Source of the DNA: Verrucomicrobiota bacterium
Lineage (GTDB): Bacteria; Verrucomicrobiota; Verrucomicrobiia; Opitutales; UBA953
Direction of reading: 5' to 3'
Assembly: GCA_030834165.1 (NCBI GenBank)
Contig: JAURFU010000012.1
Coordinates: 1-42,584, forward strand
DNA length: 42,584 bases
A program made the position numbers and the translations under genes. This document shows, in pieces, positions 36,940 to 42,584 of this stretch. Position 1 is the stretch's first letter, and every line of letters starts with the position of its first letter. The notes below the pieces were generated by a model that saw only the letters and a list, made by a program, of their open reading frames with translations, made no database searches and was not told where the DNA came from.

Positions 36940-37599
36940 ATGGAAAACATTCCCGCAGAAAACCCCGGAGCCATGGATCGCCGTCAGGCGCTCAAGTGGA
37001 TCGGCGCCGCCGCCGCGGCCGCCGCGTTCCTCCCGCACGCCACCGCCCAGGATAAGCTCCCGCGTCCGGCCGGCGGACAACGCATCGGCTCGGATCCGGT
37101 GCTCAACAAGACCTACGCCCCGGGCGAGCTCTGGCCGCTCACGCTGACGCCCAAGCAGCGCAAGGCCGCCGCTTCGCTGACCGACCTGATCCTGCCGCCG
37201 GATAACCCCGGCGACAAACAGCCGTCGCAGCTCGGCGTCCAGGACTTCATCGATGAATGGATCAGCTCCCCCTACGATGAGACCGCCAAGGACCGCCCGG
37301 TCATCACCGGAGGTCTCGATTGGCTCGACGCCGAGTCTCGGCGCCGTTTCCAGAAGGATTTCGCCGACCTGGCCGAACCGCAGAAATGCGCGATCGCCGA
37401 CGACATCTGCGGCAAGACCCCGGTGAAGAAGGAGTTCAAGTCGGCCCAGAACTTCTTCAACCGCTTCCGTTACCTCGCCGCCAGCGGGTACTACACCACG
37501 CCGCAGGGCTGGAAGGACATCGGCTACGTGGGCAACGTCCCGATGGTCGACTTCCCGGGCCCGACGCCTGAAGCGCTGAAGCATCTGGGATTGGCCTGA
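36940..37599 (+). CDS. gluconate 2-dehydrogenase subunit 3 family protein with Tat signal
   Basis: 219-residue small subunit for the GMC enzyme upstream. The Tat signal is M-D-R-R-Q-A-L-K-W-I-G (about 12-22) followed by an Ala-rich hydrophobic core and an AQ cleavage region near residue 37. The mature part has LTDLILPPDNPGDKQPSQLGVQDF landmarks (LILPPDNPG and GVQDFIDEW), which are typical of PF13618 proteins, and ends GYVGNVPMVDFPGPTPE. In known family members the small subunit carries the folded, FAD-loaded large subunit through Tat (hitch-hiker export); here that is inferred. A second in-frame ATG at residue 12 gives a shorter Tat signal and is a possible true start. An intrinsic terminator follows 33 bases after the stop. 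Confidence 0.9.
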   Translation: MENIPAENPGAMDRRQALKWIGAAAAAAAFLPHATAQDKLPRPAGGQRIGSDPVLNKTYAPGELWPLTLTPKQRKAAASLTDLILPPDNPGDKQPSQLGVQDFIDEWISSPYDETAKDRPVITGGLDWLDAESRRRFQKDFADLAEPQKCAIADDICGKTPVKKEFKSAQNFFNRFRYLAASGYYTTPQGWKDIGYVGNVPMVDFPGPTPEALKHLGLA

Positions 37600-37631
37600 G
37601 TCTGGAGGGCCGGAGTCCCTGAGGTTACGAG

Positions 37632-37668
37632 GACCGGAGGTCGAGAGGCCTTCGGTCTTTTTGTTTAT
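37632..37668 (+). terminator. intrinsic terminator of the GMC operon
   Basis: GACCGGAGG (37632-37640) pairs with CCTTCGGTC (37649-37657) over nine positions including one G-U, loop of 8, then TTTTTGTTTATT. A REP-type palindrome starts 3 bases later. Confidence 0.85.
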
Positions 37669-37670
37669 TC

Positions 37671-37771
37671 AGGCCGCCGAATGGTGGCCTGCAGGTAGGG
37701 TCACGACTTAGTCGTGACCTAGGGCGTGACGTAGTCCCGCCCCTACCAGACGTTCACCATCCGGCGAACGT
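37671..37771. repeat. REPIN-like palindromic element A (two inverted REP units)
   Basis: Two REP units face each other. Left cap hairpin AGGCCGCC-GAAT-GGTGGCCT (37671-37690), then GGTAGGG, then core GGTCACGAC-TTA-GTCGTGACC (37699-37719); a degenerate second core (37721-37740), then CCCCTACC, then right cap ACGTTCACC-ATCC-GGCGAACGT (37750-37771). The same cap, GGTAGGGG/CCCCTACC and core elements recur around the transposase gene at 41470-42140. It lies between the terminator and the start of the 1211-residue fusion gene. Confidence 0.8.
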
Positions 37772-37824
37772 TGTCATTTGGAGTTGGAACAATCCTCCTG
37801 TCGGATTGCCTAACAACCAACCCC

Positions 37825-40800
37825 ATGAAGCGACTGACTTCCTTGCTTTGGCTGTTCCTCGGAGCCTACGGCCTAGACGCCGCGACGACTCCATTGTTCG
37901 ACGGCAAGAGCCTGGCCGGCTGGGACGGCGACCCCAAGGTCTGGCGCGTCGAGGATGGCGCGATCGTCGGCGGCTCGCTGCAGGGCAATCCGCGCAACGA
38001 GTTCCTGACCACGAAGCGCAGTTTCTTCAACTTCCGGCTGAAGCTCGAATACAAGCTCGTCGGCACCGAAGGCTTCGTGAACGGCGGCGTGCAGTTCCGC
38101 AGCCTCCGCGCGACGAACCCTCCGAACGAGATGGTCGGGTATCAGGCCGACATCGGCGCCGGCTACACAGGGTCGCTTTACGACGAATCCCGTCGCAAGA
38201 AGGTCCTCGCCAAGGTCGGCACGGGCGTCGGTTCCCAAGGGGTGAAGAGCGAGGCGGAACTGAAGGCGCTGGAGAAAGTGGGCGAGTGGAACACCTATGA
38301 GGTCGTCGCGGTCGGGCCGCGCGTCATGATCTATCTCAACGGACGCAACACCGTCGATTACACCGAGACCGATCCGTCCATCGATGACGCCTACGGGCTC
38401 ATCGGCCTCCAGATCCACGGCAACTGCAAGGCCGAGATCCGTTTCCGGAACATCACCATCGATCCGATGACCGAAGTGCCGGTCACGACCCGCGACGAGG
38501 TGCTGAATCGCTTCGGCGAACCCAAGTCCGCCTGGACGCCGCCGACCCCTTTCAAGGATGGCAAGTTCGCCCTCGGGCAGGATGAAGTCGTCGTCTTCAT
38601 CGGCCAGGAGAACCTCGTCCGCGAAGCCAAGGCCGGGGAGATCGAGCAACGTCTGGCCATGGCTTACGCGGACAAGCGCCCCGTCTTCCGCTCGATGGCC
38701 TGGGAGGCTGACACCGTGCATGAGCAGTGGCGCGACCTCAACTTCGGTCCTTGGAAGGGGCAGCTCGAGACGGTCGGCGCGACCACGCTCATCCTGCAGT
38801 TCGGACAGGCCGAGGCGCTGCAAGGTCCCGCAGGTCTGGCCAAGTTCAAGTCCGACACTCATCGCCTGCTGGACGAGTTCACGCGCCACACCCCGCGCAT
38901 CGTGCTGTTGTCTCCGGTGGGGTTCATGCCTTCGAGCCGTCCGCCGGACCTGACCACGCCCGAGCGACAACAGGATCTGGCTGCTTACGCCTCCGCGGTG
39001 GCGGACATCGCCCGGCAGCGCGGCCTGCCTTATATCGACCTGACCGAGTCGACGCGTGGCGAAGAATCCGCCGATGGCATGCATCTCTCGCCGGTTGGAT
39101 TGTCCAAGGTCGGCAAGGCGGTGGCACGTTCTTTGGGGCTGCCAGAAACCCTTCATCTCCCGGCCGAATTACGTACGGCGATCGTCGAGAAGAACCGCCT
39201 CTGGGCCGATTGCTGGCGGCCGGCGAACTGGTCTTTCGTCTATGGTGACCGCATTTCCCAGAACTACGGCAAGGGCTTCGGCCCCGTGCCTTCGTTGAAG
39301 CAGAACTTCGAAGCCTATAAGCCCTTGGTCGCGTCTTGGGATCGGCACATCCAGGCTCTGGCCCGAGGTGAGAAGTCCGCAGCCCCTGCGCCTCAGGCCG
39401 GTCCGGCCATCGCCACCGAGAAGGTCATGACCGCGGCCGAGGAACAGGCCACCTTCAAGGTCGCCGAGGGTTTCGAAGTGAACCTCTTCGCCGACGAGCA
39501 TCTCGGCGTCGCCAAGCCCACCCAGATGTCCTGGGACGCCAAGGGGCGTCTCTATGTCTGCTGCTCGCCGACCTATCCGCAGGCCGTGCCCGGCGTGAAG
39601 CCACGTGACTATATCCTTCGCCTCGAGGACACCGACGGAGATGGCAAGGCGGACAAATCGGTCCGCTTCGCCGAAGGCCTCACGATGGTTCAGGGCGTCG
39701 AGCCGTTTATGGAGGATGGGAAGTCCGCCGTCATCTTCGTCTGCGACTTCGATCGCCTGCTCTTGCTGGCCGATCACGATGGCGACGGCAAGGCCGATCC
39801 CGAGAAGACCGTCGTGCTGATGTCGGGCTTCGGCGTAGGTGATACGCATCAGCTCGTGAACTCGATCAGCCACGGGCCGGACGGTACGTTGTGGATGAGC
39901 CAGGGCCTGCATGCGATCACCAAGGTCGAGACGCCGCGCGGGATCGTCAGGCTGCCGAAGTCGGGCCTGATGCGCTACGACCTCAAGAACCAGCGTCTCC
40001 AGCCGTTCTTCCAGTATGGCAAGGCCGGGCACAACTGCTGGGGCGTTGCCTTCGACGACTATTTCCAGCCCTTCCATAAGAGCGGCGACCGCGTGGCCGG
40101 GTATTACAGCCTGCCTGGTCTCGGCGCCATCGAGACCCCCGACGAATATGCCGGGACGCATTCCCTGTTCGATTCACCGTTGAAGTCCACCTCCGTAGAG
40201 ATCGTCGGCACCAAGGCCATGCCGCCCGAATTGCAGGGCGCCGGTTTCATCGGCGGTTACTACGGCAACACCTTGGATCTGCATCGCTTCGTGGACGACG
40301 GCGCGGGCTTCAAGACCGAGCGCATCGTCAGCCCCATCATCTCGTCCAGCAAGGCCTTCCGCCCGGTGGACGTCTCGGTCGGGCCTGACGGCGCCTTGTA
40401 TGCCTGTGATTGGTTCAATGCCGTCATCGGTCATTACCAGGCCAGTTATGCGGACCCGCGTCGCGATCGCTCGCACGGTCGCATCTGGCGCATCACCGCC
40501 AAGGGCCTGCCCTCTGTGAAGCAGCCCGACCTCCGTTACCTGATGGAGAGCGACCTCTTCTCGCATCTGTCGTCTCCCGAACGTTGGACGCGCTACCATG
40601 CCCGCCGTATTCTCTTCTATAGTCCGACCGACCGGGTGGCCGCGGCGGCGGACAAGCTGATATCCCGATCCCAGGACGAGCGTATGCTGATGGAGGTCGC
40701 GGGCGTCCTGCAGGCGCATGGTCTTGTGCGTCCTGCGCTCATCGACCGGATGCAGAGGGCGGCGGACTTCAGGATTCGCGCCTACGCCGCACGGGTCGCC

Positions 40801-41460
40801 GGCGAATGGTCCGCGGATTTCGCTGACGGCTGGCAAGCACGCCTTGAACGCGCCGTCACCGACGAGCATCCGCGTGTCCGCCTCGAAGCCGTCGTGGCGC
40901 TGAGTCACGTCGGCGGACCCGATGCGTTGCGCGTCGCCCTCAAATCCCTCGATCGCCCCTCCGACAAGTTCCTTGATTACGCCCTCAAGCAGACCGTCCG
41001 TCATCTGGCCCCGTCAGCGGGTAATCTCGCGACCGAGTTGCCGGCACCGCAGGCCAGCTACATCAAGAAGATCGTCAGCAGCGGACCGGCGGTCGTCTCT
41101 CCAGGTCAGGCCATCTACGAGGCACTCTGTCTGAACTGTCACCAGGCCACCGGACAGGGACTATCGGGTGTATATCCGCCATTGGCCAAGAGCGAGTGGG
41201 TCGCCGGCGATCCTCAGGCGCTCATCAAACTGACCATCCACGGTCTGGCTGGTCCGACCAAGGTGCTGGGCAAGGATTACGGACTCGTGCCGATGCCGCC
41301 CATGGGCCTCGATGACCAGCAGCTGGCCGATGTCCTGACCTACGTCCGTTCGGCGTTCGGTAACCAGGCTCCGGCGGTCAAGGTGGAGGACGTCAAGAAG
41401 GTCCGCGAAGCGACCAAAGGTCGCACAGCACCATGGACCGCCGCGGAGTTGGGGAAGTGA
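37825..41460 (+). CDS. DUF1080 - SGNH-like - PVC beta-propeller - HEAT - cytochrome c fusion protein
   Basis: 1211-residue exported multidomain protein. Signal peptide about 1-19. DUF1080 domain about 20-215 (PLFDGKSLAGW near its start, GEWNTYEV later). SGNH-hydrolase-like domain about 240-475: the GDS block reads FIGQEN and the GxND block FGQAE, so the serine nucleophile seems missing, while DGMHLSPVG keeps the Asp/His block. Propeller about 545-890 (EDTDGDGKADKSVRF, DHDGDGKADPEKT, DGALYACDWFNAV). HEAT helices about 900-1060. Class I cytochrome c with C1102-L-N-C1105-H1106 and likely axial Met in MPPMG (about 1157-1160). The upstream in-frame ATG at 37771 would read through the REP element and is rejected. 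Proposed role: 3-keto-glycoside processing and electron transfer on one chain, an inference from domains and from the neighbouring GMC pair. Confidence 0.9.
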   Translation: MKRLTSLLWLFLGAYGLDAATTPLFDGKSLAGWDGDPKVWRVEDGAIVGGSLQGNPRNEFLTTKRSFFNFRLKLEYKLVGTEGFVNGGVQFRSLRATNPPNEMVGYQADIGAGYTGSLYDESRRKKVLAKVGTGVGSQGVKSEAELKALEKVGEWNTYEVVAVGPRVMIYLNGRNTVDYTETDPSIDDAYGLIGLQIHGNCKAEIRFRNITIDPMTEVPVTTRDEVLNRFGEPKSAWTPPTPFKDGKFALGQDEVVVFIGQENLVREAKAGEIEQRLAMAYADKRPVFRSMAWEADTVHEQWRDLNFGPWKGQLETVGATTLILQFGQAEALQGPAGLAKFKSDTHRLLDEFTRHTPRIVLLSPVGFMPSSRPPDLTTPERQQDLAAYASAVADIARQRGLPYIDLTESTRGEESADGMHLSPVGLSKVGKAVARSLGLPETLHLPAELRTAIVEKNRLWADCWRPANWSFVYGDRISQNYGKGFGPVPSLKQNFEAYKPLVASWDRHIQALARGEKSAAPAPQAGPAIATEKVMTAAEEQATFKVAEGFEVNLFADEHLGVAKPTQMSWDAKGRLYVCCSPTYPQAVPGVKPRDYILRLEDTDGDGKADKSVRFAEGLTMVQGVEPFMEDGKSAVIFVCDFDRLLLLADHDGDGKADPEKTVVLMSGFGVGDTHQLVNSISHGPDGTLWMSQGLHAITKVETPRGIVRLPKSGLMRYDLKNQRLQPFFQYGKAGHNCWGVAFDDYFQPFHKSGDRVAGYYSLPGLGAIETPDEYAGTHSLFDSPLKSTSVEIVGTKAMPPELQGAGFIGGYYGNTLDLHRFVDDGAGFKTERIVSPIISSSKAFRPVDVSVGPDGALYACDWFNAVIGHYQASYADPRRDRSHGRIWRITAKGLPSVKQPDLRYLMESDLFSHLSSPERWTRYHARRILFYSPTDRVAAAADKLISRSQDERMLMEVAGVLQAHGLVRPALIDRMQRAADFRIRAYAARVAGEWSADFADGWQARLERAVTDEHPRVRLEAVVALSHVGGPDALRVALKSLDRPSDKFLDYALKQTVRHLAPSAGNLATELPAPQASYIKKIVSSGPAVVSPGQAIYEALCLNCHQATGQGLSGVYPPLAKSEWVAGDPQALIKLTIHGLAGPTKVLGKDYGLVPMPPMGLDDQQLADVLTYVRSAFGNQAPAVKVEDVKKVREATKGRTAPWTAAELGK

Positions 41461-41469
41461 TGAGGGACA

Positions 41470-41520
41470 GGGCACGAACGTAGTCGTGCCCCTACCTTCC
41501 GGCCACCATGCGTCGGTCGG
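41470..41520. repeat. REP unit B1, left flank of the RAYT gene
   Basis: Core hairpin GGGCACGA-ACGTAG-TCGTGCCC (41470-41491), then CTACCTT, then an imperfect cap hairpin ending about 41520. The first 29 bases are identical to those at 42093-42121, on the far side of the transposase gene, in the same orientation. It starts 10 bases past the stop of the fusion gene and may also act as its 3-prime hairpin. Confidence 0.85.
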
Positions 41521-41525
41521 TATAA

Positions 41526-41573
41526 CGTTCGCCGAATGGTGAACGCAGGTAGGGGCGGGGCTACGCCACGACC
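41526..41573. repeat. REP unit B2, inverted, left flank of the RAYT gene
   Basis: Cap hairpin CGTTCGCC-GAAT-GGTGAACG (41526-41545), then GCAGGTAGGGGC and a degenerate core (to about 41573). It is inverted relative to B1, so the caps meet in the middle, the opposite of the arrangement in element A. Confidence 0.75.
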
Positions 41574-41623
41574 TTGCCTGGTATGTTATCCCAGGCCGAG
41601 TAGGGTGTTGCCTGTCTTGTCGA

Positions 41624-42106
41624 ATGCGTCTCCGGGTCTTCCTGTTACATATGTCATGGAAGGAGCGAAAAGGCCTGCCGCATGACAGGCCGACATGGGT
41701 TTCGGATACAGATCCGATATTCCTGACATTATGCGGAAGGCCTCGTGGGGTTAATCAATTCGCCAAAGCAGATCGATGGAGCGCTATTCTCGCAGCCTCA
41801 GCCGAACTGGAATCTTTAGCACGATGGCGCCCGCTTTTGATTCTAGCGATGCCGGATCACCTCCATCTGATCGTGTTGATACCTAGGGTGCATGGTATCG
41901 ACTCCGTAATGGCAGATTTCAAGCGGAGCATATCCGTGAAGCAGCCTGTCGATTGGCAGAGGGATGGGTTCGATCATAGATTGCGAAACCGCGCACAGCT
42001 GCGGGCGAAATGGAACTATGTGCTGATGAATCCGTCACGCGCCGGATTGTGCCAGGCGACCGAAGACTGGCCCTACATCTATTCACCGGGGAGGGCACGA
42101 ACGTAG
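41624..42106 (+). CDS. REP-associated tyrosine transposase (RAYT, TnpA_REP / Y1 family)
   Basis: 160-residue single-domain nuclease of the HUH/Y1 superfamily. The metal-binding motif is M-P-D-H79-L-H81-L-I-V and the presumed catalytic tyrosine is Tyr132 in KWNYVLMNPSRAGL; the early motif GLPHDRPTW (about 18-25) is also typical. RAYTs cleave and join single-stranded REP palindromes and are usually immobile, single-copy genes associated with REP spread. The gene is flanked by REP units with a 29-base perfect direct repeat. Its last five codons and stop TAG (42104-42106) lie inside the right REP. By eye its G+C is clearly lower than in neighbouring genes. Start uncertain: Met10 (41651) is an alternative; the N-terminus before GLPH is not conserved. 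Confidence 0.88.
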   Translation: MRLRVFLLHMSWKERKGLPHDRPTWVSDTDPIFLTLCGRPRGVNQFAKADRWSAILAASAELESLARWRPLLILAMPDHLHLIVLIPRVHGIDSVMADFKRSISVKQPVDWQRDGFDHRLRNRAQLRAKWNYVLMNPSRAGLCQATEDWPYIYSPGRART

Positions 42107-42140
42107 TCGTGCCCCTACCTTGCGCCACCATTCGGCGGCG
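42093..42140. repeat. REP unit C, right flank of the RAYT gene
   Basis: Core GGGCACGA-ACGTAG-TCGTGCCC (42093-42114), CTACCTT, then cap CGCCACC-ATTC-GGCGGCG (42123-42140, one mismatch). It contains the stop codon of the transposase and ends 6 bases before the stop of the convergent transporter gene, so it may serve both as a bidirectional terminator. Confidence 0.85.
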
Positions 42141-42146
42141 AAGGAA

Positions 42147-42584
42147 TCAGGTCTGCTCTTTCCGTGTCAGCGACTGCACCCAGGCGACGCCGGCGAGGGT
42201 GACCGCGCCGCCGAGCAGGGTGAGCAGTGAGGGCTGTTCCCCGAGGACGAGCCAGCCGAAGAAGACCGAGAATACCGGAATCGCATACACCGCGCTCATC
42301 ACGGTCGTGATCGGCAGGGTCACCAGCACCCATGACCAGATGGTGTAGCAAAGAGCGGCGGGGACCAAGCCGAGGAACACGAGATGCACCCAGCCTAGGC
42401 CGGAGAGGCGTGAAGCTGTGCCGACGATATCCTCGGAGAACGGGAGCAGGCCCAGAGTGCCCAGCCAGATGGCCCACGTCGTCACATCGATGGCCGCGTA
42501 GCGTTGGGTGAGGGCTTTGCTGATGAGCGTCTGCATCGCCGCACATAGGGCCGCGCCAAGGATCAGCAGTGAACCTAGGTTGAA
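42147..42584 (-). CDS. EamA/DMT family transporter, C-terminal part (cut by window edge)
   Basis: 145 residues are visible; the frame stays open through the right edge, so the N-terminal half is missing. The visible part has four to five hydrophobic segments with the EamA landmarks LVPAALCYTIWSWVL, VYAIPVFSVFFGWLVLGEQPS and LLGGAVTLAGV, typical of the second half of a 10-helix drug/metabolite transporter. Substrate unknown. The product ends QSLTRKEQT. It converges with the transposase gene, with REP unit C between the two stops. Confidence 0.88.
   Translation of the reverse strand, partial: FNLGSLLILGAALCAAMQTLISKALTQRYAAIDVTTWAIWLGTLGLLPFSEDIVGTASRLSGLGWVHLVFLGLVPAALCYTIWSWVLVTLPITTVMSAVYAIPVFSVFFGWLVLGEQPSLLTLLGGAVTLAGVAWVQSLTRKEQT

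Follow-up and report, generated by a model that had tools for sequence, protein, structure and literature searches.

A REP hairpin loop holds the stop codon of a RAYT transposase gene in an Opitutae genome

The RAYT gene and its REP sequences

The window (the whole stretch of 42,584 nucleotides that was analysed) belongs to an Opitutae MAG, an uncultured freshwater bacterium. A transposase gene accompanied by REP sequences is inserted there between a DUF7133/cytochrome c gene and an EamA gene. The features of the locus are collected in Table 1.

Judged from its sequence and modelled fold, the protein is a RAYT/TnpA-REP, i.e. a domesticated Y1/HUH transposase, with activity predicted. It matches NCBIfam NF047646 with E=3.1e-17 and 62.8 bits, below the curated cut-off of 80 bits; the same family is matched by 22/22 aligned relatives. 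PDB 4er8 ranks first in the profile search (1e-17) and is also the nearest fold to the AlphaFold model (pLDDT 90.8; rank 1, E 8.8e-8). H79, Y132 and W149, the last in the W-rich C-terminal motif, are invariant in the alignments and H81 is present in at least 90%. The original prediction of a RAYT transposase is thus backed by family, profile, fold and the conserved HUH and tyrosine residues. Pfam at a threshold of 0.001 gave no significant match, and the identity therefore relies on NCBIfam, the profile search against the PDB and the fold. The Rfam scan of 37000-42584 also gave no match. The true start is probably M10 (41651), since all orthologues align from this residue.

The reading frame of the gene is terminated by the TAG in the loop of the right REP hairpin, which consists of a perfect 8-bp stem and the 6-nt loop ACGTAG and folds as RNA with -14 kcal/mol (z -4.9). 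The last residues, ART and part of R157, are encoded by the REP, as had been claimed together with the position of the stop. They are located in the unstructured, lower-confidence end of the AlphaFold model (mean pLDDT 74 for residues 151-160). In the other two frames the first stops appear 151 and 269 nt past the conserved WPY motif, outside the element. Compared with the standard 9+3+9 REP of the genus, GGGCACGACGTAGTCGTGCCC, the REP of the window carries one extra A in the loop, which brings the TAG in frame; we infer that this A arose by insertion. The coupling of the gene end with a nuclease substrate, proposed earlier, holds as anatomy, with the REP a putative substrate.

A perfect 29-bp direct repeat on both sides of the gene had been reported as well. 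Its coordinates are exact, with the second copy at 42093-42121, and if one mismatch (at 41469/42092) is allowed it covers 33 bp. The repeat is far above chance: 0.03 copies of the 20-mer REP core with up to 3 mismatches are expected in the window, versus 2 found. A third REP, degenerate and inverted, was overlooked at about 41530-41575. Together with the right REP (42093-42139) it forms an inverted pair with GTAG heads flanking the RAYT, in which the left member is degenerate. Both members of this pair are retained in 6/6 orthologues, and the outer left copy is lost in 2/6. Hence, the direct copies around the gene do exist, but the conserved pair is the inverted one. Since conservation does not extend to the outer copy, we rejected a direct-repeat transposon spanning 41470-42121.

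Table 1. Positions of the features at the RAYT locus of the window.
Feature	Position	Strand	Remarks
Insertion between the DUF7133/cytochrome c and EamA genes	41461..42146	+	Outer limits approximate; empty in about 16 relatives
Outer left REP	41470..41498	+	Matches the right REP over all 29 bp in direct orientation; missing in G050 and G002
Inner left REP	41530..41575 (hairpin 41548-41572)	-	Head GGTAG; imperfect stem of 9 bp; forms the inverted pair with the right REP; kept in 6/6 orthologues
RAYT/TnpA-REP transposase gene	41624..42106	+	160 aa as called; HUH H79/H81, catalytic Y132
Right REP hairpin GGGCACGA-ACGTAG-TCGTGCCC	42093..42114	+	Overlaps the 3' end of the RAYT gene
TAG stop in the hairpin loop	42104..42106	+	Identical in 6/6 orthologues
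Right REP unit: CTACC (GTAG head on the - strand) and second small hairpin GCGCCACCATTCGGCGGCG	42115..42139	+	

Insertion, conservation and dispersal

In about 16 relatives without the RAYT only 0-123 bp separate the upstream DUF7133/cytochrome c gene from the downstream EamA gene. Four genomes (G054, G050, G042 and G002) carry the RAYT at the same site as the window, and in G011 the left flank of the RAYT is the same and the right flank differs. The simplest reading of these sequences is one old insertion that was inherited vertically. With dN/dS of 0.11-0.17 in divergent comparisons, the gene is under purifying selection.

The stop is always in the REP among the orthologues, as the original prediction had asked to be checked: the TAG is in the hairpin loop in 6/6 despite synonymous divergence of up to about 0.8. 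The right REP is invariant over 27 columns save one edge base in G042, versus a gene dS of about 0.75. The loop ACGTAG is also kept in the noncoding outer left copy of 4 genomes.

Some of the sites that are empty of the window RAYT hold other REPs (the loci are L109, L110, L111, L112 and L118), and therefore the intergenic gap is a recurrent REP target. Just before the DUF7133/cytochrome c gene, at 37661-37775, the window contains a second REP pair, GGTAGGGTCACGACTTAGTCGTGACCTAGGGCGTGACGTAGTCCCGCCCCTACC, which has small cap hairpins at either side. Elsewhere in the window, region 1-33000 contains blocks of 60-80% similarity in 3-4 occurrences, spaced by about 7.7 and 15 kb, which suggests repeated paralogous gene sets.

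Further copies of the REP in the genome had also been expected. In the 55 genomes of the genus the exact 22-mer REP does not occur outside RAYT loci, apart from one match with 2 mismatches in G015, and the exact REP was rejected as an abundant family. More loosely related REPs, whose loops are shorter and which include the standard 9+3+9 form, do exist and are dispersed, as are other REP families. The expectation thus stands for the relatives and fails for the exact sequence.

The same genome encodes two more RAYT paralogues, L004:200-661 (C59) and L005:1498-1932 (C43), which terminate in the heads of two different REPs, one belonging to each paralogue. At least 19 copies of the C59 REP, dispersed or flanking, were counted. 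For CTAGGGCAGCACGCGGTGCTGCC in this genome, the CTAG that ends the cognate RAYT is present in 19/19 copies listed. This CTAG is shared by the dispersed copies, and the stop is therefore part of the REP unit.

REP-supplied stops in other RAYT lineages

Other RAYT lineages of the genus, which have unrelated REPs, also end within them, and the stop is then either the TAG of a GTAG or CTAG head or a TGA in the stem. Stops inside the REP are found in the true frame at 34/45 scorable RAYT loci, versus 5/45 and 3/45 in the shifted frames. Because a hairpin was recognized only if it had a perfect stem of at least 7-8 bp, four loci (L038, L044, L045 and L050) are unscored, and L065, L041 and L042 are counted as outside though their stops touch a REP; the true-frame count is therefore, if anything, too low.

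With each cluster of 70% identity counted once, the values in the genus are 11.5/20 for the true frame versus 1.8 and 1.2 for the shifted ones, and 1/20,000 random-frame draws reaches 11.5/20. The frame runs past the REP in 1.0/20 clusters in the true frame versus 12.6 and 10.9 in the shifted frames. In 7.5/20 clusters the stop is upstream of the REP, and the overlap is therefore common, not obligatory. Outside the genus stops inside the REP occur in 5.0/21 clusters and 1425/20,000 draws are as high, a weak excess in these sequences.

In other Verrucomicrobiota the RAYT ORFs of seven loci (L220, L222, L230, L238, L239, L241 and L258) read through the downstream repeat, with tails such as GPSGPALP and GGRALP. 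At L241 and L258 the frame continues into an apparent cytochrome c gene, a possible fusion.

The overlap at the locus is not accidental, because it is fixed in 6/6 diverged orthologues and recurs with different REPs in other lineages; on this point the original prediction is borne out.

In several respects the locus is similar to the REPtrons of E. coli rayT (b0228), Stenotrophomonas and Marinomonas. Its HUH-Y1 protein is of comparable size (about 150-160 aa), the REPs on either side of the gene are inverted with their GTAG heads facing outward, and the genome also contains dispersed REP families of this type. Unlike these RAYT REPtrons, the locus combines a perfect stem with an unusual 6-nt loop, and its exact REP is not dispersed. 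The stop of E. coli rayT, as read from its sequence, is about 13 nt before its REP, whereas that of the window RAYT falls in the loop of the REP.

Di Nocera et al. (2013, PMC3733652) described that the TAG is often provided to flanking ORFs by GTAG REP termini, marked 3' overlaps (‘3'ov’) with tyrosine transposase genes, RAYT included, and counted Opitutus terrae among the bacteria with many GTAG REPs. That REPs supply TAG stops and overlap the 3' ends of RAYT genes was thus already known, and the window REP is of this kind, as it overlaps the 3' end of a gene and supplies its TAG. However, the stop in that work comes from the REP terminus and in the window from the loop, and the recurrence over many RAYT lineages is tested here against shifted frames. 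The position of the stop in the loop and its recurrence in different forms appear to be new, with priority not certain.

Proposed closure of the reading frame within the element

On the observed anatomy, insertion, conservation and recurrence in unrelated RAYT lineages we base the following proposal, which we consider probable. The element is a REPtron, composed of the RAYT, the inverted REP pair and an extra outer left REP, and the reading frame ends within it, in the terminal REP. TnpA-REPs nick single-stranded REPs, with the GTAG, the loop and the stem as determinants (PMC8266576). The RAYT protein would likewise recognize and nick single-stranded REP hairpins, by analogy with TnpA-REP of E. 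coli. The right REP lies directly 3' of WPY, the last conserved motif, where it supplies the in-frame stop, and it would act both as substrate and as translational end. With the stop supplied by the right REP, the frame would close within the element, and the protein would be independent of the flanking host DNA. In the lineage of the window this stop is the TAG of the hairpin loop.

The loop is probably also read as DNA by the transposase, and ACGTAG would stay fixed for this reason. Closure, or portability, would be the selected property, and the loop would play a dual role. We note that there is no sign of recent mobility needing portability, because the six orthologues share one insertion. 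In the stricter version, which is tentative and rather doubtful, the REP loop would be read twice: its DNA would serve the transposase as a specificity loop, and in the mRNA of the transposase it would give the stop codon. In E. coli TnpA-REP, whose C-terminal tail is known to be regulatory, the removal of 13 C-terminal residues raises the activity (PMC8266576).

Among the other readings, regulation by the overlap is unlikely. The REP hairpin at the stop codon would slow termination, block the ribosome, call in trans-translation or alter 3' decay, and RAYT expression would thereby be kept low. Liang et al. in 2015 reportedly provided an E. coli precedent connecting REPs near stop codons with translation. 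The hairpin of the window is strong as RNA, and its 5' arm occupies the last codons of the RAYT, so that the ribosome must melt it before reaching the stop. Down-regulation of RAYTs by REP hairpins was also suggested as a possibility by Di Nocera et al. (PMC3733652). However, the ribosome meets the stop ahead of the hairpin in the ‘tag’ type, whereas at the stop of the window RAYT it has already melted half of the hairpin, and no single regulatory geometry is therefore shared by the lineages. What they do share is closure before the end of the element.

The overlap may also be an unselected by-product of compactness, if the REP must adjoin the gene and stops land in its GTAG head by chance. 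GTAG heads do contain TAG, ORFs of every sort that flank a REP often receive a TAG from it (PMC3733652), and WPY and the REP are mostly separated by 12-65 nt. This reading is already weakened by the frame comparison, in which stops inside the REP are far rarer in the shifted frames, also with cluster weighting, and by the use of head, stem or loop for the stop depending on the lineage. Furthermore, genes other than RAYT rarely end in the REPs near them: of the non-RAYT ORFs of >=100 aa that end close to a REP, about 3/30 have their stop within it, and some of these ORFs may be spurious. We therefore regard the by-product as quite improbable.

Finally, the perfect direct copies, 623 bp apart in G000 and similarly spaced in G011, G042 and G054, might mark the two ends of a unit of the IS200/IS605 type (41470-42121) that leaves and enters DNA by way of direct single-strand ends. 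This is very unlikely, since G050 and G002 keep the inner inverted and the right REP without the outer left copy, RAYTs are known to have inverted REP flanks (PMC2817692), and no near-identical second copy of the element was found in its own genome. The likeness to IS200/IS605 elements (IS608, ISDra2) consists in the fold, the HUH/Tyr chemistry and subterminal hairpins recognized as single strands. Unlike them, the window RAYT is nearer to TnpA-REP by profile and fold, its REPs have GTAG heads, and instead of a mobile multicopy element we find orthologues in the same place.

REPs are among the commonest bacterial repeats and co-evolve with their transposases. The Opitutae set, with dozens of RAYTs and many REP families, allows the link between stop and REP to be addressed by comparison and simple mutants. 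If the loop is indeed read twice, a change in it that alters specificity would also alter the C-terminus of the protein, tying together the evolution of enzyme and substrate. More generally, if it is the rule that the stop comes from the terminal REP, part of the sequence is common to enzyme and substrate, and this would constrain changes in REP specificity.
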